DNA from: Bugula neritina
Taxonomy: Eukaryota > Bryozoa > Gymnolaemata > Cheilostomatida > Bugulidae
Direction: 5' to 3'
Length of the DNA: 64,000 bases
NCBI GenBank assembly: GCA_964035545.1
Contig: OZ037765.1
Coordinates: forward strand, 3,591,001-3,655,000
This document shows, in pieces, positions 11,755 to 49,693 of the stretch. Position numbers and translations under genes: made by a program. The notes under the pieces are model-generated. The model was not told the origin of the DNA. It saw only the letters and a program-made list of their open reading frames with translations, and made no database searches. The stretch's first letter is position 1; every line of letters begins with the position of its first letter.

Positions 11755-12052
11755 TACTTTTGTTTTCTCGCTCTTTGTTATAGTCCAATTATCTTCTGTA
11801 GCACACAATTCATGTTAATGTATAGCTGATATTCGGAAACTGAAAACAATGAAGGCATAAAAGCCTCTTTTCGAACTGAAATTTTGCGAACAGATAACTC
11901 TGGTTAATAAAAGATTTCTTTCTTGACATTTTTGATGCCGCTTATCTTACTAATAGTTGTCTTCTCTGTTTTAACTTCGTTGCTGTAGTGAAGTTTCGTT
12001 TTGAATCCTAGGGATTGATAATTGCTACGAGGTCAAGGTTATACAAATTAAA
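11755..12052. promoter_or_regulatory. Shared head-to-head promoter region
   Basis: 298 bp separate the LEMD3 and KDM7 start codons, which point away from each other. The region must hold both 5' UTRs and both promoters. No TATA box stands out for either gene. Confidence 0.6.
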
Positions 12053-25467: not shown

Positions 25468-28400
25468 TTAGGTAAATGTGAGTGACTTGGTTAGGGTGGA
25501 TGTGAAACACGGAGATTGCTTCGAAAGGCTGTGGCCATTACCGTTAGAGTTGGCGCTGTATGTATAAGAGACAATTTGGTTGACTCTGGTCAGTAACTGG
25601 TGTATCTCGTGACTCTTGCCATGTCGTCTCATCACCTTGCAGAACGTCTGTATAAACCAGGATCCCTGTGAATTACTCCTCCAAGCCAAATAACCTGTAT
25701 GTACAAATAAGGCGAAATATTAATTTTACAACTGCACCTTGAGCTTATTGCTGAGAAAAAGTTAGCAGAATTCTACTAGCTTGCTTGCAAAGAGTTCTAC
25801 AATAAATATGCTTCGATTTAAATAAACTTTTACGAAAACAAATCTGGTCAAAATAATTTACACTCCTTCATACTATAGAAAAAACGCATTTAGTTAAAAC
25901 AAATCTAAGTTATAAACCAGTGGTTGAGCTAGTAATCCTTTGCTTACTGTGCAATATACTATATCTATGTTTCTATTGATTAAATTACAAGAATTGACTA
26001 CATAATTTAATCAATAGAAGCAGCTTTATTTAAAAATAATTCTTGTTGGATAATTGTGTTGGATAAATTGAAGCAAGTGGTACATACAGTCTCTGAAACT
26101 AACAGAACTAATGGACGTTGGCAAAAAACAGCAGTTGTGGCCGCTAACAATGGCACACAATAATTATAACCAGAGTCCATAGTTTATAACATGTTAGTGA
26201 AATCGATACAATACAATTGATACTTTAAAAGATGTCTTAGTTCACTATTGGTACAGATGATTACCAACAATTTAAAAGCCAATTTCTCTGTAATTTGAGA
26301 TATTACATGGTAAACAATTAATTAACATTTAGTTTTACTTTGCAATTTCATAAGCCCACACCTATATTTAAACTGAAATAAATATTGCTTTAATGTTACA
26401 AAACTATGCAGATCTAGTTTTTTGTATTGAAAAAGTTGAATTAAACAAATATGTTAGCCACATTGTGCATATTTATGTTGCGGCAACATTGTCGAGCAGC
26501 ATTAAAGAACTGGTTCACTTGCATTTGGTTTGTAGGAAGCAAACCTCCTACAAATAGATACAAATCTACCTTCAACAGTAGAGTAGGCAGTTAAAATGTC
26601 AGATTCTTTAGCAATGTAGTATTGTTTCTTCATGTTGTAGCTGGTGGGCACGGGTGCATCACACGACACTTTATGACCCACATCTGTGTCTTTTCCTCGG
26701 CAAGCCTAAACCATAAATTTGCAGGTTTTACAGCTACATTTCATTCGTTAAAAATATATTTTTTTAAATGCTGGTTTAAAAACTTTCCCCAGATAAAACT
26801 CATATATGTGCATCCGAACAAAAGTACAACTTTCTTTAATGAAATTGGCGAGATAGAAGCGAAAAACATGAGGTTTTATACCTGAATAACAAAAATTTTT
26901 GGTTTTCCAGCCAAACCGCTTGACTCTCTAAAAGGAGCAAATAATTTACTGGAAGGCATGACCCGGTCTGTTCCATAGATTCCATCAGAATCGCCATGTG
27001 ATAAAATTGCTACCATTACGCCGTCCATACTTTTCAGATCAGTTCGACTGGCAACTGAAATCAATAGCAACTGGGAGAATAAAAATAAGCAAGATAATGA
27101 GAGCCTATGTTTAGTGATAAACCGCGTATTATAACTTATACAACTATACCCAGGATATACATAAGATACATGGAGATGTACACAAAGGGGCAGATGATGA
27201 GTCACTGCAACTAATGTAGTCCAATTTCCAATGTAATCAATAAGTGAAGGCATGTTTCACTACAATTATTCCAATATTTTATTATCCCGATTCTAATAAA
27301 TGTTACGGGTTTCCCGATTAGATTATCAACACTTGGTGAGACATCAAACCTGTAGATAGAAAACCGCACATATGTTCAGCAGTTAAATCTCTTTCTATAA
27401 TAACTTCTTCAAATCCCAAATAAGTGAATGTCTGCTTAAGAGCTTCTTCGTCTTTTCTAGACCCAGTTCTGTCAGGTAGCCGTAAGCCAGAATCAAATTT
27501 TTCATTGTTTATTATTATGGCCACACCTCTTCGACTGTAATATAAAGCAGATCACCAATAATTATTCCATGAAGTGCAAAATAACTTTACAAAACATACT
27601 TATACACCCTCTATCACAGATAATTTACAGATCTACCCAGTTTACAGCTCTAGGTAACAGCGAGGTATTGTAGAATACGCAAGAGATTCTAAAAAGATTG
27701 GCAGACTACCTATGAATATGTCCGGTACTCTAAACTATAAGCATTATACAAAAAATTGTCTCTTTGAATTTCTAGACCTGAAAAAAATCGAAAGACCATG
27801 AGTTTCCTTTTTGAATAGGAAAGATTATTGCAGGGTATGAGGGGGTGGGGGAGAGATTGTGGAATAATAACAGTGCCCCCCCCCCACCCGCAATCTACTT
27901 TTTACGGTCTGGAAACATAGACAGTTCATAGAATACAAGTAAAGAAGATTCAATGCGTATATGATGAGGCACTTGAAAAAAATCATAAAAATAATACATA
28001 ATGATAAGCTTCTAGATGAAAAAATATTTAGAAGAACTGGCCCAGAGCGAATAAAGATAGTGAATATAACCTGAAATGTACTGGATATATAGATTAAATA
28101 GATGCAGGTAGAATATTTAGGCAGCTTCTGATTTCGGGAATAATGAATAGGAGACACCAATATCTTAGATTGAAAGATGAAGTAGAGAGATGTTAGACCA
28201 GATGGCTGCAGCTTGAGACCCACCATGTTTTGAAAATTGCAACACACAAGAACTGCACTATTAAAGCACAGTGGTGAAATCATTCAGTGTAATCTTGTTC
28301 AAATGAACCATTACTTCAAAGTATTCAACAGAAAAATACACTTTCATTTGTTTTTAGATTTTTTTTAGTAAACACCAACATTATTATAAAACAAGGAATT

Positions 28401-28782
28401 GTAGTAAAAAATACAGGTCAATTTTCATAACACTAAAATTCCTCTAAAACATCAAACGTACTTCAACATATTATACGTATAGTCATAGTGATAATATTTA
28501 GGTTATTGTATCAATATTACGAACTTTACAATTAAATCCATAATAATTATAGTCATAGCCAATTTAAAGCAACGAGCACAACTGCACAAACACAAGTTAC
28601 CTGTTAGCCATATCATAAGCAAAATCTTTCTCTAAAAGGTCTTCATAATTATCTAGAAATGGTTGAACATGAGTGATGGGCGTAGGGGAGCTGGAGGGGT
28701 AATATATCTCGGCATCAGATTCAATGCGATCTTCTAATCCACCACTTGTATCCATTTCAGAGGCTGGCGTCATGGTTGCCAT
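25468..28782 (-). CDS. Caspase A: active effector-type caspase, 5 exons
   Basis: Cysteine protease of apoptosis, caspase-3/7-like in size and layout. Exons: 28782-28601, 27534-27350, 27054-26882, 26705-26570, 25694-25468; phases 2,1,0,1; 300 aa. The short N-terminus (about 60 aa) has no CARD or DED. p20 shows GVAIIINNEKFD, the S1 Arg in DRTGSRKDEEAL, catalytic His142 (ILSHGD) and catalytic Cys182 (VIQ|ACRG across the exon 3/4 junction). p10 shows YSTVEGYLAWRS, with the second S1 Arg, then GSWFIQTFCKV and C-terminal STLTKSLTF. The intersubunit linker is short; SCDA is a possible cleavage point. All catalytic residues are present. It is the downstream member of a three-gene tandem array, and the LTR retrotransposon begins 427 bp upstream of its start codon. 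Confidence 0.92.
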
Positions 28783-29208: not shown

Positions 29209-29474
29209 TGTAATGGATTTTAACGCTCTAGTAATTATATCGCGTCACTATTATAATGGACTTAGCGTAACTTTGTAAATACTGTAAATGCTGTAATTAT
29301 AGCTAAGCTCCTTGCGTAGCTTTCTAATGCCTCAAATATTGTAATTATAACTAAGCTTAGTGTAGTAAATAGCGTAATGATTGTGAATTGCCCTTCCTAT
29401 TATTTTTGTTGTTTACTGTAATAGTTTTTGTGAGTTGTATTCCCTCGCACTCGTTTTCTTTTTATTATATGTAA

Positions 29475-29593
29475 GCCGAGACTCGTGCGAAGTCGGAGAC
29501 CGAAGACACGATGTCGGAGGGACCTGCCCGAGATCGGGCAGTACTCCCTCCGATGTCGGTCGGCGGAACCCCGACGTTCGCACGAGTTTCGGC
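29475..29593. other. Long GC-rich hairpin in the LTR U3
   Basis: Nested inverted repeats: outer arms GCCGAGACTCGTGCGAAG and CTTCGCACGAG-like, inner arms TCGGAGGGA..CTGCCCG and CGGGCAG..TCCCTCCGA. The whole stretch folds on itself about 28 bp upstream of the TATA box. It recurs at 35829-35947 in the 3' LTR. Confidence 0.85.
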
Positions 29594-29620
29594 CCCTCAT
29601 TAGTGGCGGGAATTCCCCCC

Positions 29621-29627
29621 TATATAA
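29621..29627 (+). promoter_or_regulatory. LTR TATA box
   Basis: TATATAAG follows a C-rich run, with a polyadenylation signal 65 bp further on (AATAAA, 29686-29691). The order TATA, then AATAAA, is typical of an LTR U3-R. Confidence 0.75.
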
Positions 29628-29789
29628 GTGCGAAGCTTTTCAAAGTTAATTCATTCTTGTACTGGAGCTCGAAGCAGTCAGAAGAAATAAATACTCATAG
29701 ATTCATTTTAATCAAGACTCTTTATTTCTCTCACAATAACTGGCATGCAGACTACTAGTCTATTCTTATAATCCACAAAATCACAACAT

Positions 29790-29808
29790 TGGTGGCAGCA
29801 GTGGGATT
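29790..29808 (+). other. Primer binding site, tRNA-Leu type
   Basis: TGGTGGCAGCAGTGGGATT begins 1 nt after the 5' LTR. Its reverse complement matches the 3' end of animal tRNA-Leu (AATCCCAC-GCTGCCA + CCA) with one difference from the human sequence as I recall it. Confidence 0.75.
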
Positions 29809-29860
29809 AGAATAGACTAGTACGACAAGCAGCCATTAGAGAGAAAGAAAGAACAGCACA

Positions 29861-30784
29861 ATGGGGGACGAAGAAGAAGAAGTCATGGTAGAAGGAGAAG
29901 AAGAAGGAGAAGGGGACCGTCTCACCATGGAGACTCTCATCGCAGCCCTCCGGGAGGTCAGCAAGGCCGGGCAGGCAGCACCTGGAGACAGGTATCGCCT
30001 GAGGCCCCCGATTTTCGGAGGCGATGGGGACATAGAGCAATTCATCAGGGAGTTTGAAGAGGTAGCCACCCTCGCCGAATGGCCGGCACCGGTGCGCCTT
30101 CTTCACCTCCGTACCTGTCTGACAGGTCAGGCAAAGAGTTATGCTCTGGGACCCAATACAGCGCACATCTTTCAGGCCCTCAGGTCGCGTTTCGGGCTAA
30201 CCGCCCGCGCCGCCAGGGACAGATTGCGCACCATACGCCGAGACCGGAAGACCTCACTCCAAGACCATGCGAACGCTATTGAGGCACTAGTACCAGTAGC
30301 CCATAGCGACGACACACCGGCAGCACAAAGAGGTGCTGTGTATGAAGCTTTCTTCCACACAATCAATAACCCTGGACTACAGCGTTATTACTTGGCAGCC
30401 AAGGTCACCACTATAGAGGAAGCCTTAGCCCTGGGCAAGGCTTACTACCAAGTGGAGGGACCTCAATGTGCGGATTTCACCGCTTGTCAGATTGAGGAAC
30501 GACCCGAAGTCGCTAAGCCGGATCAGCCAAACCCACAGGCCGTGGCGGCTGCTACTACTTCGTCACCTGACCAGATGACCATGCTGATGGACATGGTAAA
30601 GGGATTGCAGGCAGAGATGAAACAGATGCAGAGAGAACAGGCTGATAAACGAAACCCCCGACCCCGGGGTGAACCAGCCGGTACTACCCACCTCACCTGC
30701 TGGGGGTGTGGTGCCAGGGGACATGTACGAAGGCAATGCCCTCACGGAAGAAGGATGCCTTTAAACACCCGGGGCTCGCGGTAA
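29861..30784 (+). CDS. gag: Retrotransposon Gag
   Basis: 307-aa capsid/nucleocapsid protein. Acidic N-terminus (runs of Glu), then a Ty3-type capsid region (FGGDGDIEQFIREFEEVA, YALG...LRSRFGLT). A CCHC zinc knuckle (C280-X2-C283-X4-H288-X4-C293, CWGCGARGHVRRQC) follows near the C-terminus. The ATG at 29861 is the first in frame after the PBS. The last codons overlap pol, and the slippery heptamer lies seven codons before the gag stop. Confidence 0.93.
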   Translation: MGDEEEEVMVEGEEEGEGDRLTMETLIAALREVSKAGQAAPGDRYRLRPPIFGGDGDIEQFIREFEEVATLAEWPAPVRLLHLRTCLTGQAKSYALGPNTAHIFQALRSRFGLTARAARDRLRTIRRDRKTSLQDHANAIEALVPVAHSDDTPAAQRGAVYEAFFHTINNPGLQRYYLAAKVTTIEEALALGKAYYQVEGPQCADFTACQIEERPEVAKPDQPNPQAVAAATTSSPDQMTMLMDMVKGLQAEMKQMQREQADKRNPRPRGEPAGTTHLTCWGCGARGHVRRQCPHGRRMPLNTRGSR

Positions 30785-33700
30785 CCTCCGCCAACCGTGA
30801 GCCACCAGCCAACCCCATCCGGGAAGAAATGACCCAAGGAGCCTCTTCCAGGCCAGCCGAGGCTGCGTGGGGACGTCGGAGACCCCAAGGTCTGCCCGAC
30901 TCTCCAACCCAGCCACCTACGACCCGGATGGGACTCCTAGATGCAGGATGGCAGGCACCTCGGAGATCTCGGAGACCGCAAGGTTTACCCGATCCTCCGG
31001 CCTGGCCACTCCAAAACCGGTTCGCGGGGTTGCCCGAAGAGGCTATGGAGGAAGAATCAGCTTACTCGCAAGAGTATCCCAAGCTACCCTCCCAGCCTCA
31101 GAAAACCCCCGTTGTCTGTAAGACGAAGAGGAGGCCCGCTGTAAGGACCCAAGAGGTGTCCCCCCCAGAGACTGACCGACCCAGGAGCACCCAGCCGTAT
31201 GGAAGCAGCTACTTCCTGCCCGGAAAAATTTCGGGTAAAGCTGCCACCTTCCTGCTGGACACAGGGTGCACTACAAACCTGCTAAGTCGGCGTCTCTTCG
31301 ACACCCTTGGCGCCCGAGAGCGGGCGAGCCTCGAGCCATACGAAGGAGCACACGGTACGTTGGCGGACGGATCGTGTATCCCCTTCTACGGCATTATCAC
31401 ACTACCTGGACGAGTCCGTGATCAAGTAATTCACGAGACGTTCATTGTCAGCCACCTGAAGGAAGACGCCATTCTGGGAATGCCCTTTCTGGAGAAACAC
31501 CAGTGTCACATAGATTTCCAGAAGTCGGCGGTGGTGATGGCTGGGAAGGAACTTGCCTGTGTGGACAAGTTTGGTAGGCCCTTGGTGGGCGGAGTCCAGG
31601 TAGTGCAGGACTGCACGATTCCAGGGAGATCCCAGGTTACTCTCCGATGCAGGGTCAACTGCAAGGAGATCGCCGCACTGGGGGTGGTGGAGGGAACGCA
31701 CGGAGCAATTCGACTGGCAAACAGCCTAAATCGGCTGGACTGTCGAAGAGAGCTCCTCGTGCAATGCATCAACCCCTTTGCGGAATCGGTCCGATTATCG
31801 GCTGGTGCACTGGTGGGGAAGTACCACTCCATCCATGAGGCGGATGTGGGTCCGGCACTGGAAACAGTGACCGACACCCAGGGAAACCCCCCTCACAACC
31901 ACCGAGAAGCGGTCCCGGAGCATGTGGCTGGCTTGTACAGTGGAGCGTGTGGAAACTGTACGAGTAGTACTGAACGCCAAACACTGGCTCAACTACTCGC
32001 GGAGTACAGTGATGTCTTCAGCCGTGGTGATGAAGATATGGGGCTGACTAAGGTTATCTCCCACGAGATACCCCTGGCAGCTGGCACCACTCCCATCAGG
32101 CAGCCAACCCGACGTCTGGGCCCGGAGAAGGAGAAGGAGGTGAGCCGGCAGGTGCAAGATCTTCTCGACCGGGATCTGATTGAGCCTGCCCACGGTGCGT
32201 GGAGCTCTCCAGTAGTCCTGGTCAAGAAGAAGGATGGTAGCTGGAGGTTCTGTGTGGACTACCGCAGACTCAACAGCGTTACCATCCAGGACGCTTACCC
32301 CCTCCCGCGGATAGATGAGTCTCTGGATGCCCTCGCGGGTAGCAAGTACTTCAGTACTCTGGATCTGCTTAGCGGGTACTGGCAAGTACCCCTCAGTCCT
32401 GATGCTCAGGACAAAGCAGCATTCATTACCCGCGATGGGCTCTGGAAGTGGAAAGTACTGCCGTTTGGACTTACGTCCGCCCCGGCAACTTTCCAAAGAC
32501 TCATGGAGCAGGTCCTCAGTGGGTTACACTGGAAGACCCTCCTAATCTATCTGGATGACGTCATTGTCATCTCCCCAGACTTTACGACTCATGTCAGTCG
32601 TCTGCGGGAGGTCTTTGACCGACTCCGGGCTGCTGGACTGAAGTTGAAGCCCTCCAAGTGTGCACTCCTACAGCAAGAAGTCACGTACCTGGGCCATGTG
32701 GTTGGCCGTGACGGGGTCGCTACCGATCCGGAGAAGGTACAGGCTGTGAAGGAGTGGGCCGTCCCCCGGGACCTCTCTGAATTGCGGGCATTCCTGGGCC
32801 TGGTAGGGTACTACAGGCAGTACGTACCCGGGTTTGCAGGGGTGGCTCAGCCTTTGAATCGGCTAACCGCCAAGGGAGTCCGGTGGCAGTGGACACAGGA
32901 GGAGCAGCAGGCATTCGACCACCTCAAACAACGGCTAATGGAGGCGCCGATTCTGGCGTATCCTGATCCAGCCAAAGAGTACATCCTGGACACCGACGCC
33001 AGCGACCACAGTGTGGGAGCTGTTCTGTCTCAAGTCCAGGGTGGAAGTGAGGTGGTCGTGGCTTACTACAGCAAGACTCTCGCGGCCGCCGAGAAAAACT
33101 ACTGCACCACTAGGAAGGAACTCCTAGCAGTAGTCAAGGCGGTCAAGCACTTTCGGCCATATCTGTATGGAAGAACGTTCCGGTTGCGAACAGACCATGC
33201 ATCACTGATATGGTTGTGTAAACGTGCAGAGCCCTCGAGTCAGGTGGCTCGTTGGTTAGAGATTCTTGCTGAGTTTTCCTACCGGATAGAGCACCGTGCC
33301 GGCAGGAAGCACGGGAACGCTGATGGCATGAGTCGCCGACTGGTAGAGAACTGCAAGCAATGCCTGCACATCGAAAGACGTGATGGGGGACCTGCCCGCC
33401 TTGACGTCGAGGCACAGTTGGGGGACGGCAACGTCTATCGTTGGGAGCACGGCCATCTTCGGCCTGAAACCCACTCAGACGACGTCCAGGCACTCCGTGC
33501 TAACCCCACACTGTACCAGAACGTCAAGGAGCTGTGTCGACTGCAAGAAACACTCCCTGGATCAGTAGCTGACATCTTCCGAGCCAAGAAAGAAGGCAGA
33601 CGGCCCTCGGAGGAACAGCAACGGCAGGGGGACGCTGAGTTTCAGTTCTTCTGCCGCCGCTGGAATTCTCTCCAGATTCGTTCAGACGGTCTCCTGACGA

Positions 33701-35460
33701 TGACACTCGCAGCAGACAACCGGCAACAGGAGAGGGATCGCGTCGTATGCCCACGCGCTCTCCGTCGGGAAATCATCTGGGACACCCACAAACAGGCCCA
33801 TGCGGGAGCCAGTCGGGTCATCAGATGCCTGCAGATGCGATGGTATTGGCCCGGAATGACCAGGGATGTGCGACTGAGAATTCGGCATTGTGAAGTCTGT
33901 CAGGCCAGCAAACACGGGCGCCCCACCGAGACCACGGGTCGGCGCCGGCTGTACGCCGGCCGACCCTGGCAGGTCGTAGCCATAGACCTCGTGGGACCAA
34001 TGCCCACCACAGAAAAGGGGAATTCCTGGATTTTGGTCTTGACGGACCATTTTACAAGGTGGGCGGACGCCCTGGCTATTCCCAATGCATCGGCACCCAC
34101 GGTGGCTCGGACCTTGGATCAAAACGTGTTCTGCTACTTCGGCCTACCCGAACAGATACACTCTGACCAAGGTGCCCAATTTCAGTCACAACTGTTAAAG
34201 GACCTTTGCCAAGTATGGGGGGTGAATCAGAGCCGAACTACCCCGTACCACCCTCAAGGAAATGGAGTGGTAGAGAGGAATAACCGGATGCTGGGTGATG
34301 CACTCCGGAGTCTTTTGTTGGGGAGGAGCCAAGAAGAGTGGGACACCATGCTACCACAGATCATGCGGGCCTATCGAAGCACCCCTCACTCCAGTACACA
34401 AGAGACACCTAATTTGTTGATGTTGGGCCGTGAAACTAGGGTGCCGGAGCACCTTGCTTACCATATCCCGACCCCCGAATTTCCAGTACACGAGTACGTG
34501 GGGAAGTTGGTAGAGACCATGAGAAGAGCCCACGACGCTCTGAGAGAGAAGCAGTGGACGGTACGGACAGACGACTCCGAGGAGCCTCCGCTATACCGGG
34601 AAGGGGACTGGGTGTGGATGATCAGTTACAGGAGGCGGCGCGGACAATCGGCTAAATTACAGCCTAAGTTCGTAGGCCCCTACTGCGTGGTAGAGGTTTT
34701 ACCCAACCATACATACCGTGTGGAGCGCTCTGGACAGATATCTGTCCAAAACGAGCAACGGCTAAAACCCTACCATGGAAGCCCAGAAGCTGCGGGACAG
34801 GCACCACCACTATTAGAGCCGGCCCGCCAACCCATATCCCGTGGGAGAAGGAACCAACCCAGAGACTGGGAAATTTTTATTCGTAATCCCGAGGAGCCCG
34901 ACAATAGCCCAAGACCTCCGCCACAAAACCCACCCTCGGTTCCTCCTACTCCGGATCCACTCCTTAGGCCCACACAGATAGAGGACCTCTCACCGCCGCC
35001 AGATAACCCAGGACCAGTCACATCACCCGAAAACCGGGAGGAAGTACCTCCCATACACGACACTCCAGACCGGCCAGATACCTCAGTCTCCAACACCTTG
35101 GAGAGAGCCAGAAGAGACAGGAAACCCCCCAAGTACTTGGCTGATTATCACGTAGGGCGTTTGACTGGCCCCCAGTCATCGAGTTGTTCACCCAGTACGG
35201 GTAAAGACTCCAAGCCTCGAATGCAGAGTAGCCCTGAAAGTGCAGGACAACTTCAGGTACAGCAACTCGCAAACCAGCCCAGACACATAGTAGACGGCCA
35301 CCCACCTAGTGTTAGCCCAAGTGGACGACGGCGCCCTAGACCTACCGATGGCCTTGACCTCACCCAGAGAAGTGACTTAGACGAAAGAATTCAGGCCTTA
35401 TCCTGCCACCTCGATCAATGCACAAGGGAGATAGAGAGCCTGATACGCCGAATCCGATGA
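30706..35460 (+). CDS. pol: Retrotransposon Pol (PR-RT-RNaseH-IN)
   Basis: An uninterrupted 1584-codon frame, -1 relative to gag; it is probably entered at the heptamer 30760-30766, so the first ~18 codons are not used. Domains by codon from 30706: aspartic protease LLDTG (D about 185); reverse transcriptase about 455-680 with YLDD at about 615; RNase H with DTDAS (about 762) and TDHASL; integrase with an HHCC zinc region, then D1094 (VAIDLVGP), D1154 (HSDQGAQF) and E1190 (VVERNNR), a D,D-35-E spacing; GPY/F module near 1322 (FVGPYCVVE). A long Pro-rich tail ends at 35460 with no chromodomain. All catalytic residues are present, so the element may be competent. Confidence 0.95.
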   Translation: MWCQGTCTKAMPSRKKDAFKHPGLAVTSANREPPANPIREEMTQGASSRPAEAAWGRRRPQGLPDSPTQPPTTRMGLLDAGWQAPRRSRRPQGLPDPPAWPLQNRFAGLPEEAMEEESAYSQEYPKLPSQPQKTPVVCKTKRRPAVRTQEVSPPETDRPRSTQPYGSSYFLPGKISGKAATFLLDTGCTTNLLSRRLFDTLGARERASLEPYEGAHGTLADGSCIPFYGIITLPGRVRDQVIHETFIVSHLKEDAILGMPFLEKHQCHIDFQKSAVVMAGKELACVDKFGRPLVGGVQVVQDCTIPGRSQVTLRCRVNCKEIAALGVVEGTHGAIRLANSLNRLDCRRELLVQCINPFAESVRLSAGALVGKYHSIHEADVGPALETVTDTQGNPPHNHREAVPEHVAGLYSGACGNCTSSTERQTLAQLLAEYSDVFSRGDEDMGLTKVISHEIPLAAGTTPIRQPTRRLGPEKEKEVSRQVQDLLDRDLIEPAHGAWSSPVVLVKKKDGSWRFCVDYRRLNSVTIQDAYPLPRIDESLDALAGSKYFSTLDLLSGYWQVPLSPDAQDKAAFITRDGLWKWKVLPFGLTSAPATFQRLMEQVLSGLHWKTLLIYLDDVIVISPDFTTHVSRLREVFDRLRAAGLKLKPSKCALLQQEVTYLGHVVGRDGVATDPEKVQAVKEWAVPRDLSELRAFLGLVGYYRQYVPGFAGVAQPLNRLTAKGVRWQWTQEEQQAFDHLKQRLMEAPILAYPDPAKEYILDTDASDHSVGAVLSQVQGGSEVVVAYYSKTLAAAEKNYCTTRKELLAVVKAVKHFRPYLYGRTFRLRTDHASLIWLCKRAEPSSQVARWLEILAEFSYRIEHRAGRKHGNADGMSRRLVENCKQCLHIERRDGGPARLDVEAQLGDGNVYRWEHGHLRPETHSDDVQALRANPTLYQNVKELCRLQETLPGSVADIFRAKKEGRRPSEEQQRQGDAEFQFFCRRWNSLQIRSDGLLTMTLAADNRQQERDRVVCPRALRREIIWDTHKQAHAGASRVIRCLQMRWYWPGMTRDVRLRIRHCEVCQASKHGRPTETTGRRRLYAGRPWQVVAIDLVGPMPTTEKGNSWILVLTDHFTRWADALAIPNASAPTVARTLDQNVFCYFGLPEQIHSDQGAQFQSQLLKDLCQVWGVNQSRTTPYHPQGNGVVERNNRMLGDALRSLLLGRSQEEWDTMLPQIMRAYRSTPHSSTQETPNLLMLGRETRVPEHLAYHIPTPEFPVHEYVGKLVETMRRAHDALREKQWTVRTDDSEEPPLYREGDWVWMISYRRRRGQSAKLQPKFVGPYCVVEVLPNHTYRVERSGQISVQNEQRLKPYHGSPEAAGQAPPLLEPARQPISRGRRNQPRDWEIFIRNPEEPDNSPRPPPQNPPSVPPTPDPLLRPTQIEDLSPPPDNPGPVTSPENREEVPPIHDTPDRPDTSVSNTLERARRDRKPPKYLADYHVGRLTGPQSSSCSPSTGKDSKPRMQSSPESAGQLQVQQLANQPRHIVDGHPPSVSPSGRRRPRPTDGLDLTQRSDLDERIQALSCHLDQCTREIESLIRRIR
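30760..30803 (+). promoter_or_regulatory. -1 ribosomal frameshift signal (TTTAAAC + stem-loop)
   Basis: TTTAAAC at 30760-30766 lies in the correct gag phase (T TTA AAC). Six nt later a 10-bp stem forms between GGCTCGCGGT (30773-30782) and ACCGTGAGCC (30794-30803), with one G-U pair and an 11-nt loop. The pol frame is open through this point. Confidence 0.85.
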
Positions 35461-35527
35461 CTGAGACAAACAACTGCGAACCACCAGCATTCAACGCCCC
35501 GGACGGAGGCTAAATTGTTTTTCTGTT

Positions 35528-35562
35528 ATCGAAAAGGGAGATGCTTTTCGATGGGGGGAGAA
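35528..35562 (+). other. Hairpin and polypurine tract before the 3' LTR
   Basis: A perfect 9-bp inverted repeat, ATCGAAAAG (35528-35536) and CTTTTCGAT (35544-35552), sits directly before the purine run GGGGGGAGAA that abuts the 3' LTR. The purine run is the likely plus-strand primer. Confidence 0.75.
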
Positions 35563-36142
35563 TGTAATGGATTTTAACGCTCTAGTAATTATATCGCGTC
35601 ACTATTATAATGGACTTAGCGTAACTTTGTAAATACTGTAAATGCTGTAATTATAGCTAAGCTCCTTGCGTAGCTTTCTAATGCCTCAAATATTGTAATT
35701 ATAACTAAGCTTAGTGTAGTAAATAGCGTAATGATTGTGAATTGCCCTTCCTATTATTTTTGTTGTTTACTGTAATAGTTTTTGTGAGTTGTATTCCCTC
35801 GCACTCGTTTTCTTTTTATTATATGTAAGCCGAGACTCGTGCGAAGTCGGAGACCGAAGACACGATGTCGGAGGGACCTGCCCGAGATCGGGCAGTACTC
35901 CCTCCGATGTCGGTCGGCGGAACCCCGACGTTCGCACGAGTTTCGGCCCCTCATTAGTGGCGGGAATTCCCCCCTATATAAGTGCGAAGCTTTTCAAAGT
36001 TAATTCATTCTTGTACTGGAGCTCGAAGCAGTCAGAAGAAATAAATACTCATAGATTCATTTTAATCAAGACTCTTTATTTCTCTCACAATAACTGGCAT
36101 GCAGACTACTAGTCTATTCTTATAATCCACAAAATCACAACA
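35563..36142 (+). repeat. 3' LTR
   Basis: 580 bp, no difference from the 5' LTR found by eye. TATA at 35975 and AATAAA at 36040 correspond to the 5' copy. It is followed by ATAT, matching the 5' flank. Confidence 0.95.
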
Positions 36143-38400: not shown

Positions 38401-41400
38401 TCACTTTTGAGAAAAGACAAGTGATTTGGTGAGAGTAGATGCGAAATACGGACATTGTTTAGCCTTATTATACTGTGGCTGCAGAGCTCTGAGAGTGTAG
38501 GTGTAGGCAACCATCTGGTTCACTCTAGCCATTAGCTCGTGGATCTCCAGTCTCTGACCGTCTTTGTTCATCACTTGACAGAAAGACTGTATGAACCAGG
38601 AGCCTAGTTGGTTGTCCCTCCACACCAAATATCCTAGTGAAGTGCAGCCAACAGTAAATGTAGAGAATTTATAGGGAAGATAAATCTTTCTATTTTGCTG
38701 TATCAAGCAAGATTTCTAGTGCAATTTGGAAAAAGTAAACGCTTGATGTCTAATAAGCAAACATTCTGGTTAAATGGTGAGGTGTGTGAAAAGGTCAAAA
38801 GTTTTACCCAACTCATACTCTACACAGTAGTACAGGGGAACATAACCCTCAATGAACTCTAAAGTTGTGTTCATGTTGAGATGTTGGAGTGGAAAACATG
38901 GCTATTGAAACTGGCGCTACAAAATATTTTCCTGCTGGCACAAGTGAGTGCATTTGATAGGAAGAGAAAAACTGTATATGTACATAGATGCTACCCCTTG
39001 CACGATTTTGTACACAGATGCTACCCCTTGTGTGATGTATAATAAATGAGCTGAATTTGTGAGCCACACACAGGACAGTATAACGATGTCGCTGCTTATT
39101 GAGCATAGAGTAATCTCAGGCTAAACATTCACAAGTACGCAATATGCATGCCACCCACAGAGCAAAAATATAGCAAGAACTTAAAGAATCCCTGACACAC
39201 TTAACTTATATAGCATGAAAATATTCATCTATATCTTAGCTATCAATTAAGCATCCCTTTAAGGGTGGATGGCTATACTATTTCATTTTATAACAACTTT
39301 AGTGCATGCATGTCCAAAAAACTTTCGGATTTCTAAGCTCTCAGTGCACACGTATTACGCCGGTTTCCGGTCTGCTTCGAGTCCTAGTTACTATATAACT
39401 AATAGTAATAATTGCATACTTTCGCAGCGTGTTATTTTTAGCCACTGCAACACACAGATAAATCACTACACTGACATAAATTTTAAAACACAGAGTACAA
39501 CTAATGCTCAATGAAAAAAACAAATGATACCATTTTATTATTGATATTAGAAGCTAAAGTTACTTCCGTTAGAAATTTTGAGCATCGGAAAAATGAAATA
39601 GCCTCACCCTCACGATGTAATTAGAACGGGTGGCTAAGTACGGTGATAACACGATATTGTTAAAAGAAATTAGCTAAATCCAACGAGTGGCAAACTTTTC
39701 TATAAAACATTACAAATAATTGCATATTCAATTATGTAACTTATTACGCTTCCAAATAGATTATCATTACCGTAACCGGATATTACCAATATAACCTGTG
39801 CCTAGTAGTACTACTACTAGTAGTAGTAGTCGCTCGCTATCTATATAAATTCGATTTCATATTCATATTGCCATTGGACTCTAATGAACAAACTTATTAC
39901 CTATATTACTAGTTACACTTGCACTTACTGTCGACATGACTACACGGTAAGTTAAAGTTGGTAGCTATGTCTTTATTGCCGCGAAATTTGTTTATGAAAT
40001 AAAACCTAAATTCTACAAAAAAACACTAATTGGGGGGCTAGACAGACGTCCGATAAATTAAAAATGCTAAAACTAAGGTTACATGAAACGGAAAATATAG
40101 CCTATATTTATTTTCCGAATGTCTTACAGGCGGCATTTCCATCTATTTCTCGCAACTGCGGTGTAATACGTCACAGAAAGGCGAAAAAGATTCTGGAAGT
40201 TTTTTGGACATGCATGCACTAAAATTGTTATAAAACAAAATTGTTTAGACCTGAAACCCTAAAAGAGTGTTAAAATAATAGCCAAGACATAGATGAATAT
40301 TTTCATGCTATATAAGTAAAGTGTGTCAGGAATTCTTTAAACTAAATTGTGAGTGAAATTAATGATATTCTTAGTTAGGATGCCTGTGTGTACTACATTT
40401 CGGACTAATGGACCTTTGGAACAATGGGCCTTCGGAATATTGCTTCGTCCCCGTATAGCACAGCTGGTCACGTGGTGATGAGTCACTCACATATGAAGAG
40501 GATCTTCAACCACAACTAGATAATGCTAATCAATTGAACAACACTAAAGGTTTAAGTATAGAGTTTACCATCAGCAGTGGAGTGAGCTACAAACACATCT
40601 GATTCCTTAGAGACTACAAGTGCTTTTGGCTGATTATGTGCCGTGGGGACTGCATCAAATTGAATCTGCATCATGGGGTCTGTATCATCTCCCCTTTCTG
40701 CCTGAAGAGCAAAACCATAGTTGACGAAAAGCATGACATAATTCAGTGACTGATGAAAATGTAGCAGCTTTGAAGAGTTAACAAGTGTTTGGCAATATTT
40801 TATACAAAATAATTATCTAGTCAAAAATGAGTTTGACGCCACAAACGTTGCAAGATAGTACATCTGCTACTCCTACATCGAAATTTTTTTTTTGAGATAT
40901 GTGTGATTAGTGTGAGTGAAAATAGTCCTTCTGCACTTATCAATGAAACTGAGTTAACAAACTAACGGAGATCATTAATTTATTTAAAAAAAAGAGGTAA
41001 ATTCAACGAACATGCATGCAGTAAAACTTACACTCCTAACTTACACTCCGCACTTACACTCCTAACTTACACTCCGCACTTACACTCCTAACTTACACTT
41101 TTAACTTACACTCCTAACTTACACTCCTAGCTTACACCAACTCACTTGCATGATGAATATCTTAGGTTTGCCTTTCAAGGTAAGCGAGTCCCTGAAAGGA
41201 GCAAACACTCTGTTGTAGTTCATTGTTTTATCACAAGCATATAATGCCCCTGCTGTACCATGAGACAGAACAGCCACCATAACACAATCACTGTTAGTGA
41301 AGTCCCTCCTGGCTACTACAAATCAAGAGTAGCAGTTTCGTTTTTAATGACATGTCCTACACAAATATATGATACGAATATTCTTTTTCTGCTGAACAAT

Positions 41401-42402
41401 TAGCTGCCAACGATTTTCTACTAAATTATTGTGAATATTTCAGCATAACAGTAATTGTGTTCTTTCAGAGATCTGCCAGTCAATTTCAGTCAACCTTAGC
41501 CAACTCAAACTATGACAGATGTTGACTTGCGGTGACTTTCCATCAGCTATGATAAGCTCTGCAGTCAGTCATGTTATTAAATTGACACTAGACAGCAAAT
41601 CTTACCAGTGCCTAATACTAGTAGTGCTTAATTTATATTTACACAAGTTTAATCAGTAAATAATCAAAGAACTACCTTCTTTAAGGAAAGAAACCATTGG
41701 TTCAGCTTTAAGATTTCTCCGTACCAACACTTCTTCAAAACCAAGAGAGTAAAAGGTTTCTATAAGACTCTGCTCATCTTTCCTAGATCCTGGACGATCA
41801 GTAATTTCGAGGTCAGGGTCAAATTCCTCATTGTTTATAATAACAGCCACACCTCTTTGACTACAGAAATACAGCCTATGTGCATTTCATGGAATTATAA
41901 CCTGAAAAGCAGTTAATCTAAAAAGTAATTAGGATGTGAAAATAAAAAGATGCACAAACTTTTAAAACTATTCGATAAAAATACATATAAATAAAGCTAG
42001 TTGAAGTTTTATAATATAGGAAAAGAAGCATTTCGCATAAAATTTTATTTACAATTTACAATATTTAAGCAGTTTCTCTTTTGGAAAGTTTAAAAAAGCC
42101 TTTCTTATTCACCATTGATTTAATTAGAAATAATTTTACATGCTGCACAGCCAATAGTTGCTGCATATCAAAATAAAAATGCCGAGTTTTAAACCAAACA
42201 TTGCCAGCTTACTATGAACTAGAAATAAAACAAAATATCTGATATAGATTTACTTGTGACTCATTTTGTATTTAAAATCCACGTCGGTCATAAAGTTATA
42301 ATTTTCTATGTTCGGCGGCAGCTGTGATGTAGTCTGTAAGGAACTTGCTGCAGATGAAGCTTGAGGAACTGGAACTGTGCCTTGCCCCATAAAGTTAGCC
42401 AT
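38401..42402 (-). CDS. Caspase B: pseudocaspase lacking the catalytic cysteine, 5 exons
   Basis: Caspase fold, probably no protease activity. Exons: 42402-42254, 41860-41676, 41315-41146, 40701-40569, 38633-38401; phases 2,1,0,1, as in its neighbours; 289 aa. p20: [13 protein letters not shown]1 Arg in DRPGSRKDEQ, His130 (AVLSHG, followed by T rather than the usual D/E). Exon 3 ends IFIMQ and exon 4 begins AERGDD, so the catalytic Cys of QACRG is Glu170. p10 is intact: HSTADGYLVWRDN with the second S1 Arg, [20 protein letters not shown]. All splice sites are canonical and the frame is open, so this is not a decayed pseudogene. By analogy with c-FLIP (Cys replaced by Tyr) it could regulate a paralogue by dimerising with it; that role is inference. 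The last intron holds an inverted-repeat element. Confidence 0.9.
38979..39031 (+). repeat. Two-copy direct repeat
   Basis: TACATAGATGCTACCCCTTG is followed after 9 bp by TACACAGATGCTACCCCTTG. It lies in the last caspase B intron, left of the inverted-repeat element. Confidence 0.7.
39181..40340. mobile_element. Foldback-type element with ~180-bp terminal inverted repeats
   Basis: The arm 39181-39362 matches the reverse complement of 40159-40340 imperfectly. Shared blocks include CCTGACACACTT, TATATAGCATGAAAATATTC, TTTTAGTGCATGCATGTCCA and ACGTATTAC. The outer ends read TTAAAGAAT and ATTCTTTAA, so the target may be TTAA. The roughly 800-bp centre has no transposase. It is probably a non-autonomous DNA transposon; family unknown. 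Confidence 0.75.
41035..41135 (-). repeat. 13-bp repeat next to the caspase B exon 3 donor
   Basis: About eight copies of ACTTACACTCCTA (sense strand TAGGAGTGTAAGT) start about 10 nt downstream of the donor CAA|GTGAGT at 41146/41145. Each unit contains a donor-like GTAAGT in sense orientation. Confidence 0.8.
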
Positions 42403-43779: not shown

Positions 43780-46700
43780 TTAGTTGAAATAAAGTGACTT
43801 AGTAAGAGTGGATGTAATGCAAGGGCTTTGCTTCATTTGATTCATTTGTGGGTCTTGAGTGCTGGACATGAAGTTGTAGGAGACTACCCTATTGACCCTG
43901 GTCAACAGCTGGCCAAGCTCCAGCTTTCTCCCATCCTTGTTCACCACTGTGCAGAAGGATTGTATGAACCAGGACCCATCCATACCGTTTCTCCAAGCAA
44001 AATACCCTGCAACATAATTAAGAAGAAGTTTCAGTAGCTTTATAACATATAAAAAAAGCAAAGCAAAAGCATATTACGTGGAGAATTTACTTTACACTAC
44101 AAAATATATATTGCCAATAAATCAGTTAAATGCGACAGTAAAAAAAAGTTGTTATATTGCTTGGGTCAAAGTCTCAAGAGAGAGCATAACTTCTTTTCCT
44201 ACATATCTAATTTAAAACACAGACTTTTTCCTACATTTCTTCATTATTAAGTCTACCTCATTTTTATAATACACTGTATATTTATGCCGGGCTGATGCAA
44301 TTAATGTTCTATGTAATCCAAAAGGCTGAAAGATGTACCACCATGGTGGGCACAACCCCTCATTATATATCGATTATCAGCATCCATCTATCAATGTCTG
44401 ATGTAATTTAGCAACATCCTGACTGATGTATTCAAGACTTGGTATCTATAAAGCTAAAGCACTACAAGAAAATAAATTGAATACAACATTACACAATGGT
44501 AATTGTTAGTATTCAAGAGAAAACTCAGCGATAACTGAGATGATCTGACACGTTTCATGTAAATTAACAATTTTCATATAGATGTAGAAAACTCTCAAAC
44601 GAGGCGGTATTATCAAATAAAATACAAAAAATCTCGTTAATTGCATGTTACTTGTACTAAAACAGAATAACTTGAATTATCCTTCCTGGCTCACCTTGAA
44701 CTGTTGAATACGCCACAAGAACGTCGGACTCCTTTGAGATGACGTATCTCTTTGGTTTATTGCTCTTTGATGGTAAAGCATCGTGTTGAAACTCAACTCC
44801 TTTATCCAGAGTTTGTCCACGGCAGGCCTATTAATTGTAATATTAATAGATTTCCTTTGTATTACCGTAATAAAATAGAGTCAACACTATTACAATACAA
44901 GCATGAGACAAAATGTGATGAATATTAAAAAAGAAAACTGTACAACTTGCACCAGCAGTAACAAAAAACATTAAAAATTATAATTTGTAATTTTGTTGAA
45001 AGCTAAAAAAACAATTGGCATATGTGTGTAGCCTAAAAATATGGCCAACTAAACGATAATCAACTCAGATGTTTGTTATCTCTCCACAAATGAGGTCTAG
45101 ACAGATAATAGCAAATCCAAGTAAATTGTAAAGTTATTTAGGCACTTTGAATAGATGAAAGTCGTGGATTAGAGAGCAACAGTCAACTAAAATTTTAAAT
45201 GCAAAAAGAAAAAGCACGATGACCAATATGCTATGCTAAACATGAGCTATTTGTCATTCATACTGAAAACAATTAAGAAATTTATCTCGCCTTCAATTAA
45301 AGGTAATATCAGAGAACAGTTTGAACCGGTAATGAATTCACTGCGAACCTGAATGAGAAATATTTTAGGTTTCCCAACCAAAGACATGGCTTCAGGTGGT
45401 TTGAAGAGAGAGAAGATTTGTTCGTACTGGATAGGTCCGTCTGTGCCATATATGACACCTTCGTCACCGTGGGACAGCAGAGCAACGAACACACAGTCGC
45501 TGTCAGTAAAGTCTCTACTAGCAACTGCAAGCAGCAAATATCACTATAAGTATTTGAAATGAGCTATTTTCACTCCTTTTAGAAGCTTGGTCTAAGTCTT
45601 ATTACTTCTGTAACTGAAATTCTTTGAGTCTAGTTGATTTGTTAAGCTAATGAACATTTAGATTTTAGAGTATAAAATAATATACTTTTATAATGACAAC
45701 TGAATTAAGGTTTGCATATAAATACTAAAAGTTCATGAATATCACTAAACATAAAGTTCTACAAAGAAACTCTTTGAGTAAGCTGTAATCTACATTTTGC
45801 ATATTGTATAATATGGCATTGAATTTCCAGGGAAAGCACTGAATGTGTAGATCTAAATTCTAAACAAAGTTTCATCCAGTTAAGTAAGAATACAAATGCA
45901 CTTAAATCAATTGTTTAAAATATGTTGAGCATAACATAACTCAAGCGACTGAAGGAGCAAATCTTTAAACTGTTTGGATACAATGAACAGGTGGCTTAGG
46001 CAGTGTCTATATTGGAGGAGCTAATGGTTCAAATATTCTTATGAGTAAGAACCAAATGTCTGTTAGCATCAATTTTCCCTCAACGTGTTTCTTGTATCAG
46101 GTTATTAGAACAACAATGGCTGAATTCAGATGAACAGAGAACTGTACGAAAGACACAGTGGTTCACAGTTACCTTTCTGTAGAACGTCGACCATTTTTCT
46201 GCCAGTTAAGTTATTATGTACGATGATATCTTTAAAGCCGATAAACTGTAGAGTTCTGGCCAGCTTGTCCCTGTCAACACTGGAGCCTGGTCTGTCATTC
46301 ATTCGGATTAGCTGGTCAAACTTATCATTGTTTATGATGACAGCGACCCCACGACTCCTGCATCAATAAACAGCCGTCAGCTAAGTAAGCTAGCCAAGGT
46401 GTCGCATGGTAGGCAGGAAAGAAACACATGTCGCAGCGGGACCATTTTAGAGGTTTTGAAAATAAAATATTTAAATTTCTTGATATCCATTCATAGAGAA
46501 AATATTTTTTCATCATTTTAAAAAAAAAATATAATTCTTTACTCAGAAAGGGGCGTAGAACTTGAAAGAGATTTAGGTGCAAATGTAGAAACACTGTACA
46601 AAGCGTTTTAGTGTTCATTACAAAAATTGCTAGCAGCTCCCTTTATAGCTTTACACTGACATTGAGACGAGGTCAGTGTAATTATCAACGGGACGATATT

Positions 46701-47494
46701 AGTATATATCCATATTATATGAATAAATTCCTATTAATGTAAGAAACAATTATGTGATAGCTTATCAAGAAAAATTTACAGAAAGTGTCCATTATCAATC
46801 AGCTTCAATTCAAAAACTCTAAAAGTAACATAATAAATTCGGAGTTATGATGAATATCCAATAGGCATAGACAACTCCCTCTCCCCTTACTAAAGTGAGT
46901 CATAATTATCAATACTCTATTATTGGTACAGGAAGTCTAAAAAATGCTATCACTGTTCCCTAGCAACCAAGATCTGAATAATATTAATCAACATCTCATT
47001 ATAGTGATTGTTTATAGAGGTTATGTAATGCTAGTCTAAGTCCATAAGTAAATCAATACTGCAGAAATATTGCCTAGTGGTGTGTTATATAATGAGGCAG
47101 CAGTCACTGTTCTTATAAAAGATAAGTTAAGTTACTATGAATGGGTAACAAAAGAAGGACATTTTAAGCTATGGTTAGTTGTGATGGTCTACTGTAGCCC
47201 ATAGCGAAGTTCCTCCAAAAATCTGAAGTCACCAAGACTCTTACTAAAAACCTATGTAGTATTAATTTATTGAACCTAACTAGTTACAAGTTGTGTACTA
47301 AAGTTCTGCTTGAGCTCAATTGTAAACACATCATACTTATGCTTCATGTTGTACTCAAATTCCTCATCTCCCAGGTCCGCATAGCGCTCTAACACTGTGA
47401 GTGGAACCGCAGGCTTAGCTGCACCCTTTCCTGTGACAGGCCTTGCATCAGGGGCATCACCTTGACCTTCAGCACTTCCACTCATCTTGAGCAA
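43780..47494 (-). CDS. Caspase C: active effector-type caspase, 5 exons
   Basis: Exons: 47494-47337, 46357-46173, 45534-equivalent boundary 45524-45349, 44827-44695, 44006-43780; phases 2,1,0,1; 292 aa, or 289 from the second Met (47485). The 289-aa start gives exon 1 the same 149-nt length as in caspase B. p20: [25 protein letters not shown] with the S1 Arg, His133 (ALLSHGDEG) and Cys175 (LIQ|ACRG). p10: [34 protein letters not shown]. All catalytic residues are present. The exon 2 acceptor is CAGGAG; the first AG keeps the 185-nt exon length found in all three genes. Exon 4 is 133 nt, as in caspase B. It has no long prodomain, so it is an effector rather than an initiator by architecture. 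Confidence 0.92.
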
Positions 47495-48553: not shown

Positions 48554-49693
48554 TTAGAGTTGAGTGACTGCATCACAAATAGCATTAGTAAACTCCGAGC
48601 AGTTGGCCGATCCACCTAAATCACCAGTGACATATTTTGCTTCTTTGATGGTCGCGAAACAAGCGGCTTCAATTCTGTCAGCATAACTGTTCAACTCCAT
48701 GTGACGAAGCATCATGACTGCACTCAGCAACAGCGCTGTTGGATTAGCTTTATCCAACCCAGCAATATCAGGCGCTGTTCCATGCACTGACTCAAAAATT
48801 GCAGCACCATCTTCACCAATGTTACCACTGGGAGTAAGTCCCAAGCCTCCGATCAAGCCTGCGCCTAAATCACTAAGTATATCACCATAAAGATTGGGCA
48901 TGACTAGCATATCGTATTGCGAAGGATCCTGAACTAGATTCAAGCAGACGGTGTCCAGATAGCTTTCCGAAAATTTTATCTGCCGATGTTTTTCTGCTTC
49001 TTCACGACAACATTTCAAAAACAGTCCATCTCCCATTCTCATAATGTTAGCTTTGTGAACAGCAGTAATGTGAGAACGATTATTAGCTATAGCGTACTCA
49101 AATGCAAACTTGGCGACGCGTCTGGAAGCTGCTTCAGTAATTAACTTGATACTTTGAACAACTCCGGGCACAATTGTATGTTCAATGCCGCTATATTCAC
49201 CTTCTGTGTTTTCACGTATGGTCACAATGTTAACATCATCATAAGCTGTTTTAAAGCCATCAATAGATTTACAGGGTCTAACATTGGCATAGAGATTAAA
49301 TTCTTTTCGAAGAGCAAGGTTAAGTGATCGGTGACCTTTTCCAACAGGTGTAGCCAATGGGCCTTTAAGACCGATTTTGTTTTTTATAACAGAGTCAATT
49401 GCTGTCTGAGGAATACCAAATTTGCCATCGGATTGCATAACTGGTGTAACATCAACACTTTCCCATTCTATTGGAGCCCCAGCAACTTGAAAAATCTGTT
49501 GCACAGCAGCTGAAATTTCTGGGCCAATCCCATCTCCAGGAATTAATGTGACTTGTCGAGTCGCAGCATCGGAGTAGGCACGGACATAGTTAGGTAAATT
49601 TGACTTGTGGGAAGTAAGCGTTGCTCTAGCAAGAGATAGTATTTGCTTTGTTGCTTGCATATTGTATAGAATTGGTAAAAAATTAAAGCTCAT
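48554..49693 (-). CDS. IDH3A: Isocitrate dehydrogenase [NAD] subunit alpha, mitochondrial, intronless
   Basis: Catalytic subunit of mitochondrial NAD-dependent isocitrate dehydrogenase: isocitrate + NAD to 2-oxoglutarate + CO2 + NADH in the TCA cycle. One uninterrupted frame of 379 codons; the human protein is 366 aa. The mature part starts at [17 protein letters not shown]. Substrate and metal motifs are intact: [64 protein letters not shown]. The N-terminus is rich in Arg, Ser and Thr, as in a mitochondrial presequence. The second Met (49660, MQATKQIL) gives the more typical presequence and may be the real start. Vertebrate IDH3A has many introns and all other genes here are split, so a retrocopy origin is possible; the frame shows no damage. 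Confidence 0.95.

Follow-up and report, generated by a model that had tools for sequence, protein, structure and literature searches.

Why would a genome keep a caspase whose nucleophile is gone? The question is raised by gene B of the bryozoan Bugula neritina, an animal in whose zooids the polypides regularly break down and are formed anew. The gene lies in a stretch of 64,000 nucleotides (the window: contig OZ037765.1, positions 3,591,001 to 3,655,000 of assembly GCA_964035545.1) together with two active-type caspase paralogues, A and C, and carries Glu where these have the catalytic Cys. Dead caspases are already known, FLIP(L) and caspase-12 among them (PMC11121540), and in the literature covered those of invertebrates have mostly been recognised by motif, and what they do has been left open. 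The interpretation that we favour, with modest confidence, is that B is a catalytically dead pseudocaspase of the effector type, intact and maintained by selection, that regulates its active paralogues. We are surest that B is dead as a protease, less sure that its product is useful, and least sure that it acts on the active paralogues.

Structure of gene B and loss of the nucleophile

Gene B is a five-exon effector-type caspase on the minus strand (window 42402-38401). The model encodes 289 amino acids in 870 nt with no internal stop, and its four introns are all of the GT...AG type, with phases 2-1-0-1 identical to those in A and C. The exons of B and the two neighbouring genes are as follows.

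42254..42402, minus strand: exon 1 of B, short prodomain; start codon 42402-42400 in the context gccATGG; donor gtaaat, phase 2
41676..41860, minus strand: exon 2 of B, with Arg72 (S1 pocket) at 41796-41794, aligned with caspase-7 R87
41146..41315, minus strand: exon 3 of B, with the catalytic His130 at 41262-41260 and Gln168 at 41148-41146
40569..40701, minus strand: exon 4 of B, with Glu170 at the nucleophile Cys site, 40698-40696
38401..38633, minus strand: exon 5 of B (p10), with Trp217 at 38622-38620, Arg218 (S1) at 38619-38617 and Tyr275 at 38448-38446
43780..47485, minus strand: gene A, active-type paralogue (QACRG), five exons by the splice model
25468..28782, minus strand: gene C, active-type paralogue (QACRG), five exons by the splice model and sister of B by the tree

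In a Pfam search the Peptidase_C14 domain (PF00656) was matched in B over positions 1-232 of 233 (E 9e-49), starting at residue 52; the 51 residues ahead form a short prodomain, an effector-type feature. Peptidase_C14 was the sole domain found by that search, with no CARD or DED. B is predicted on these grounds to carry the full p20-p10 caspase fold, in the same layout as caspase-7.

The nucleophile motif reads QAERG in B (residue 170 is Glu, codon GAA, 40698-40696) and QACRG in A and C, exactly as the initial annotation had placed it. That annotation reckoned with at least two base changes from TGY to GAA, an underestimate: all three codon positions differ, so that three substitutions or one complex event are required. 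By the code table, any stepwise one-base path loses Cys before Glu is reached. Exon 4 measures 133 nt in both A and B, hence the change did not come from an insertion or deletion.

The published assembly tzBugNeri2.1 (320 scaffolds, 216.01 Mb) is described as built from PacBio HiFi reads at about 132x with a quality value (QV) of 53.7 (PMC11480708); the genome searched here had 215.85 Mb in 295 contigs. This depth and quality, taken with the three-base difference, make a sequencing error in the one codon very unlikely, and the earlier dismissal of such an error holds. A genome search with B found its near-identical exons at a single place in the assembly. The tetrapeptide pattern ACRG occurs twice in the window, in A and in C, against 0.03 occurrences expected by chance, and a scan for GCN-TGY directly after an acceptor AG gave no candidate for an alternative ACxx exon between exons 3 and 5 of B. 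An alternative exon 4 encoding ACRG, whose use in transcripts the initial annotation had named as one outcome that would overturn its reading, is thus absent from that interval. As a control, the same scan did recover the known exon of A, C and D (D, like E, F and G below, belongs to a second cluster); it gave no candidate in E and G and the modelled exon alone in F.

Residues retained and altered in B

The best-scoring solved relative of B is human caspase-7 (7wzs and others; phmmer, E 3.3e-42, residues 42-288 of B), with 35% identity over 245 columns. The alignment reference was a caspase-7 C186A construct, in which position 186 was counted as Cys. B retains His130, Gln168, Arg171 after the nucleophile, the S1 residues Arg72 and Arg218, and Trp217 and Trp225. 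The Arg-Gln-Arg of the S1 pocket is complete (R72, Q168, R218), and the catalytic His-Cys dyad is broken, with His130 kept and Cys replaced by Glu170. The residue audit and the five-exon model together bear out the features that had been listed as preserved, namely the His, the Gln before the nucleophile, both S1 Arg, the p10 region, the splice sites and the open frame.

A, C, D and caspase-7 all agree at 73 columns, and B is altered at 12 of these: in caspase-7 numbering, I109L, C186E, G194M, Y211L, I213V, L220F, Y223H, V226A, Q260E, L262M, T263A and C290Y. The same count gives 4/65 for C, 4/65 for D and 0/61 for A, so that B exceeds A, C and D pooled (Fisher p 0.0028). Caspase-7 is an active enzyme, and the 12 fixed columns at which B departs from it include C186, Y223 and C290. 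We take Y223 and R187 of caspase-7 to be parts of the same relay as C290. The Y223 position is occupied in B as follows.

40582..40584, minus strand: His208 (caspase-7 Y223), Tyr in A, C, D and caspase-7

Tyr275 of B stands at the C290 position, which is Cys in A, C, D and caspase-7. In caspase-7, C290 has served as the tethering residue for fragments at an allosteric site of the dimer interface (PMC5698726). Where the other three Bugula genes agree with one another and differ from caspase-7, B is altered in 6/30 columns and C in 7/31, with no difference between them. The pattern points to altered constraint in B at nucleophile, relay and interface-region positions, and general decay is absent. 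C290Y and Y223H are changes at interface-region positions and do not establish that B pairs.

A second cluster with further dead copies

Genome searches with B (23 matches), A (60 matches) and G (10 matches) led to a second caspase cluster at 1.60-1.63 Mb of contig C1 (G000:C1:1600000-1628000), 2 Mb from A, B and C. Four genes were modelled there.

L033 2518-7285: gene D, active-type, QACRG
L032 7804-4533, minus strand: gene G, pseudocaspase; Tyr for His, S-E-Y-P for A-C-R-G (QSEYP)
L034 323-2195: gene E, pseudocaspase; Tyr for His, A-H-Q-V (Cys to His)
L034 5149-7347: gene F, pseudocaspase; Tyr for His, Cys kept (S-A-C-P)

Their introns are GT...AG with the same phases and their frames are open; the models of E and F begin after exon 1, which was not located. 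E and F both lack the S1 Trp-Arg (W232 and R233 in caspase-7 numbering). B is not isolated, therefore: the dyad is intact in A, C and D and broken in four of the seven modelled genes (B, E, F and G), which come from both clusters and of which one other, G, also has Glu. E, F and G share 24-37% identity with the other Bugula genes, and some other caspase-like genes match A or B with E-values at least as good as those of E and F. The seven are grouped as one subfamily by their exon layout, their neighbourhood and the p10 exon, and more members may exist elsewhere.

The genome holds at least 176 exon-level Peptidase_C14 matches. In 17 further loci that were sampled (L035-L051), a Cys-bearing motif was found in 15 (for example QACSG, EVCSG, QACRV), and L039 had no matching stretch at the nucleophile motif. 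A second stretch of L048 reads QADYI and may run into an intron. At L038:3979-5013 (C4, about 5.00 Mb) lies a 345-amino-acid Peptidase_C14 gene in a single open frame, in which D-A-S replaces Q-A-C, with Ser at the nucleophile position; it is the best family match of the genome-wide Peptidase_C14 search.

Phylogeny, rates and constraint

In a protein tree of the caspase domain, built from sequences other than the remaining Bugula Peptidase_C14 genes, B groups with C as its sister (support 99/99), the two end branches measuring 0.47 and 0.46; under LG+G4 they measure 0.43 and 0.41. Support is lower at the remaining forks (E+F 89/88, the others open), and the branches of F and G are long. Changes unique to B and to C stand at 26:26 with A as outgroup and at 27:21 with D, with no difference between the two genes.

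A codon model of A, B, C and D (243 codons; omega being the ratio of nonsynonymous to synonymous rates) gave an omega of 0.055 on the B branch, a rough value as the synonymous divergence (dS) is saturated; judged from the values tried, its 95% range reaches past 0.3 and ends short of 0.5, with no bound at low values. A shared omega fits the B branch as well (p 0.71) and an omega of 1 is rejected (p 0.007). A run with all seven genes (203 codons) also rejected an omega of 1 for B (p 0.012) and C (p 0.0014), and on the branches of the dead copies E (p 0.046), F (1.8e-5) and G (1.8e-4); with one omega, the branch lengths fitted in that run reach 32, a sign of synonymous saturation. In a neutral simulation of the 235-codon domain, 61 of 300 copies were still free of stops after 0.05 substitutions per site; at 0.2 one of 300 was, and at 0.3 and 0.5 none of 300. 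The constraint on B appears to be about as strong as that on its active-type neighbours, and dead caspases seem, from these comparisons, to be kept in this lineage. The notion of B as a pseudogene marked by stops, frame loss, splice defects or a neutral rate is not supported, given the intact model and the exclusion of an omega of 1.

The inter-subunit linker

Another feature of B that may bear on its function lies in the linker between the subunits.

40642..40656, minus strand: Asp184 followed by Ala-Val-Pro-Thr, predicted cleavage site with a neo-N-terminus of the IAP-binding type, from its position in the sequence

Asp-Ala is found equally far from the nucleophile, at a linker offset of 16, in A, B, C and D alike. 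After the Asp the linkers read D-AVPT in B, D-ALPS in A, D-AFPG in D and D-APVP in C, and, in the dead copies, D-AAVF in F and D-HIPP in E, with Asn replacing Asp in G. The linker Asp aligns one to two columns off caspase-7 D198, since linker lengths differ, and the homology is one of position and context. By sequence, B possesses the inter-subunit Asp site of effector caspases (D184), at which cleavage is predicted. The motif that binds inhibitor of apoptosis proteins (IAPs) is a free N-terminal Ala-Val/Thr/Ile-Pro exposed by processing, and AVPI of Smac and ATPF of caspase-9 are known ends of this kind. The genome has 55 matches to the BIR domain, 19 of them in a dense cluster of IAP-type exons (C5:6764913-6843442). 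Activation of caspase-9 is described as yielding a neo-N-terminus that is bound by XIAP (PMC11121540).

Function of B and its alternatives

We propose two compatible routes by which B, as a maintained dead paralogue, could act on active caspases. In one, B would fold and enter dimers with A or C, and in the mixed dimer would support or limit the active site of its partner, as c-FLIP(L) does for caspase-8. In the other, an active paralogue would cut B after Asp184, and the exposed AVPT end would bind BIR domains of IAPs and draw these off active caspases. The dimer route seems somewhat more likely. Of the initial annotation's proposal of a regulator with a dead fold, the lost nucleophile and a fold conserved by sequence stand, and selective maintenance is added by the rate and codon tests, within the limits of a saturated dS and an undated loss; the examples of c-FLIP(L) and Aedes CASPS18 make pairing with the active neighbours plausible, and the conserved Asp184, with its AVPT end, would offer the second route.

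Several results weigh against this proposal. When C alone is taken as comparator, the fairer choice given the closeness of A and D, 12/73 changes of invariant columns in B against 4/65 in C are not significant (p 0.068). With caspase-7 as outgroup the unique changes in B and C become 25:13, with B leaning faster (p 0.052). The codon results are rough owing to synonymous saturation (with the B omega free, the fitted branches are about 4 to 10 long), and a fit with all omegas free gives the A branch 0.36; moreover, the omega of B is an average over its whole branch, in which constraint before and after the loss of Cys is not separable. C290Y and Y223H could be as likely to weaken dimers as to favour mixed ones. 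B, to judge from its domain content, has neither DED nor CARD, so the recruitment route of c-FLIP is closed to it. Finally, AVPT is a match of only four residues, and the pattern DA[VTI]P occurs twice in the 24,052 residues of the window frames, one of the two being B.

One alternative is recent disablement: B would be on its way to a pseudogene, the loss of Cys neutral and the remainder not yet decayed. The rate and codon tests give one average for the whole branch since the split of B and C and cannot date the loss, the excess of changes at positions conserved in active caspases is what relaxed catalytic constraint would produce, and the faster look of B with the caspase-7 outgroup points the same way. 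We nevertheless consider it unlikely, since a codon three substitutions away from Cys at unchanged exon length needs time or a complex event, the branch of B equals that of the active-type C, stops, frameshifts and splice defects are absent, and the His, the Gln and both S1 Arg are kept; in addition, E, F and G have retained open frames at 24-37% identity, with an omega of 1 rejected on their branches. Another role, to which we give a small though somewhat better chance, is that B works alone as a caspase-triggered IAP antagonist, being cut after Asp184 so that AVPT titrates IAPs with no paralogue dimer involved. The place of D-AVPT in the region of the caspase-7 inter-subunit cut, its likeness to the ends of Smac and caspase-9, and the 55 BIR matches of the genome would suit such a role, as would the binding of XIAP to the neo-N-terminus of caspase-9 (PMC11121540). 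The similar ends in A (ALPS) and D (AFPG), however, make the motif a family trait rather than a property of B, and retention of the whole domain with its S1 Arg would be left unexplained.

B could also be a substrate trap that, with Arg72, Gln168, Arg218 and Trp217 kept and the nucleophile gone, would hold peptides ending in Asp and shield the targets of caspases; yet Glu170, at the site of attack on the P1 carbonyl, would be expected to repel an acidic P1 side chain, and we think a trap improbable. Least credible of all is an assembly or gene-model error behind which B truly encodes Cys, against which stand the HiFi coverage and QV (PMC11480708), the three-base difference, the single place of the near-identical exons and the lack of another ACxx exon.

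The nature of the new residue admits a more daring reading, which we offer as a speculation of low probability: Glu170 may be a tethered mimic of the P1 acid of a substrate that swings into the S1 pocket of B itself, forms salt bridges with both Arg and locks the loops in a substrate-bound-like state, which would make B a built-in activated half-dimer for its active paralogue. In allosterically inhibited caspase-7, residue 186 is described as moving into the P1 pocket, although the loops are disordered in that state, which speaks against the mimic (PMC5698726). Both copies with Glu (B and G) keep R87, W232 and R233 in caspase-7 numbering, and W232 and R233 are absent from E and F (two against two). 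Since B is sister to the active-type C, the Glu of B and that of G are most simply independent, and a functional Glu may have two origins, one in B (QAERG) and one in G (QSEYP). Convergence of the two was set aside as too weak to claim, with two cases and Glu a common residue.

Comparison with other dead caspases

B resembles c-FLIP(L) (CFLAR) in having a dead caspase fold, and in keeping the inter-subunit Asp, as FLIP(L) is cut by caspase-8 at Asp376 (PMC7586951). It differs in its short prodomain, where FLIP(L) has tandem DEDs, and in the dyad: Arg315 and Tyr360 replace His and Cys in FLIP(L), and B keeps His and has Glu (PMC7586951). The absence of DEDs and the retained His place B outside the c-FLIP family. 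FLIP(L) pairs with caspase-8 with both dyad residues replaced (PMC7586951). The nearest functional precedent is CASPS18 of Aedes aegypti, described as an effector-type decoy caspase without a catalytic domain of its own that enhances CASPS19 (PMC4840389). The likeness is that B is likewise predicted to be dead beside active paralogues (A and C), the enhancer role being that of CASPS18; by analogy this precedent would fit the dimer or the IAP route. The difference is that CASPS18 is a homologue of insect Decay, and it is set beside B by its description only.

Among lophotrochozoans, caspase expansions with non-conserved His or Cys have been reported in bivalves and their function left open (PMC7836458, PMC3037946). 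Cg3A of Crassostrea gigas has Tyr for His (PMC7836458), as do E, F and G of Bugula at that position, and caspase-2 of Mytilus is given as lacking the pentapeptide (PMC3037946). Neither a change of Cys to Glu nor a selection test on a dead copy was met in the parts of these two papers that were consulted. The combination of Cys to Glu, a near-complete active site and tested constraint was likewise not met in the literature searched, to which most subscription journals were external; judged by title and start of abstract, none of the papers in which 'QAERG' occurs is on caspases, and among the matches listed none concerns caspase genes of B. neritina. A search on bryozoan apoptosis, caspases and polypides gave, among the matches listed, one paper on B. 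neritina biology, on Wnt in metamorphosis. Dead caspases being known already, what is new here is the variant, Cys to Glu in an otherwise whole enzyme under constraint.

Bugula offers two clusters of related genes with three dyad-intact and four dyad-broken copies of varied divergence, in which the dead copies are seemingly constrained. B is the least altered of these, with the nucleophile and a few relay positions changed and the enzyme otherwise whole, which makes it a clean case in which to test what a caspase fold can do once catalysis is lost, be it control of dimers or titration of IAPs.

Other features of the window and the assembly

Intron 4 of B contains a repeat resembling a miniature inverted-repeat transposable element (MITE).

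39181..40340, minus strand: MITE-like inverted repeat with 149-nt arms, 84% complementary, and 862 nt between them

The interval from B to C holds, on the plus strand, a long terminal repeat (LTR) retroelement (window 29209-35862 and some bases beyond), Ty3-like by eye, with long gag- and pol-like frames; its end repeats, a direct repeat of 300 bases, are 100% identical, so the insertion is probably recent. The window also holds a LEM-domain protein (10219-11814), a member of the isocitrate/isopropylmalate dehydrogenase family (48557-49693) and a kinase-like exon (56608-56958, near the cut-off).

Repeated units were seen by eye around exon 3 of B and D. Intron 3 of B (41146-41030) and of D (L033:5285-5610) starts with repeated donor-like units of the gtaagt type after the true donor, and in D the acceptor and first codons of exon 3 recur many times, shortly upstream of the true exon, in a tandem array at L033:4420-5109 whose units are about 45 to 60 bases long.

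Beyond the animal's own mitochondrial cox1, cox1 genes occur on C17, C65 and C196, one of them without TGA codons, which suggests that sequences of other organisms are present in the assembly. As expected of a lophotrochozoan, the mitochondrial cox1 itself fits, by eye, invertebrate code 5: AGR falls at Ser-like positions and ATA at Met-like ones.

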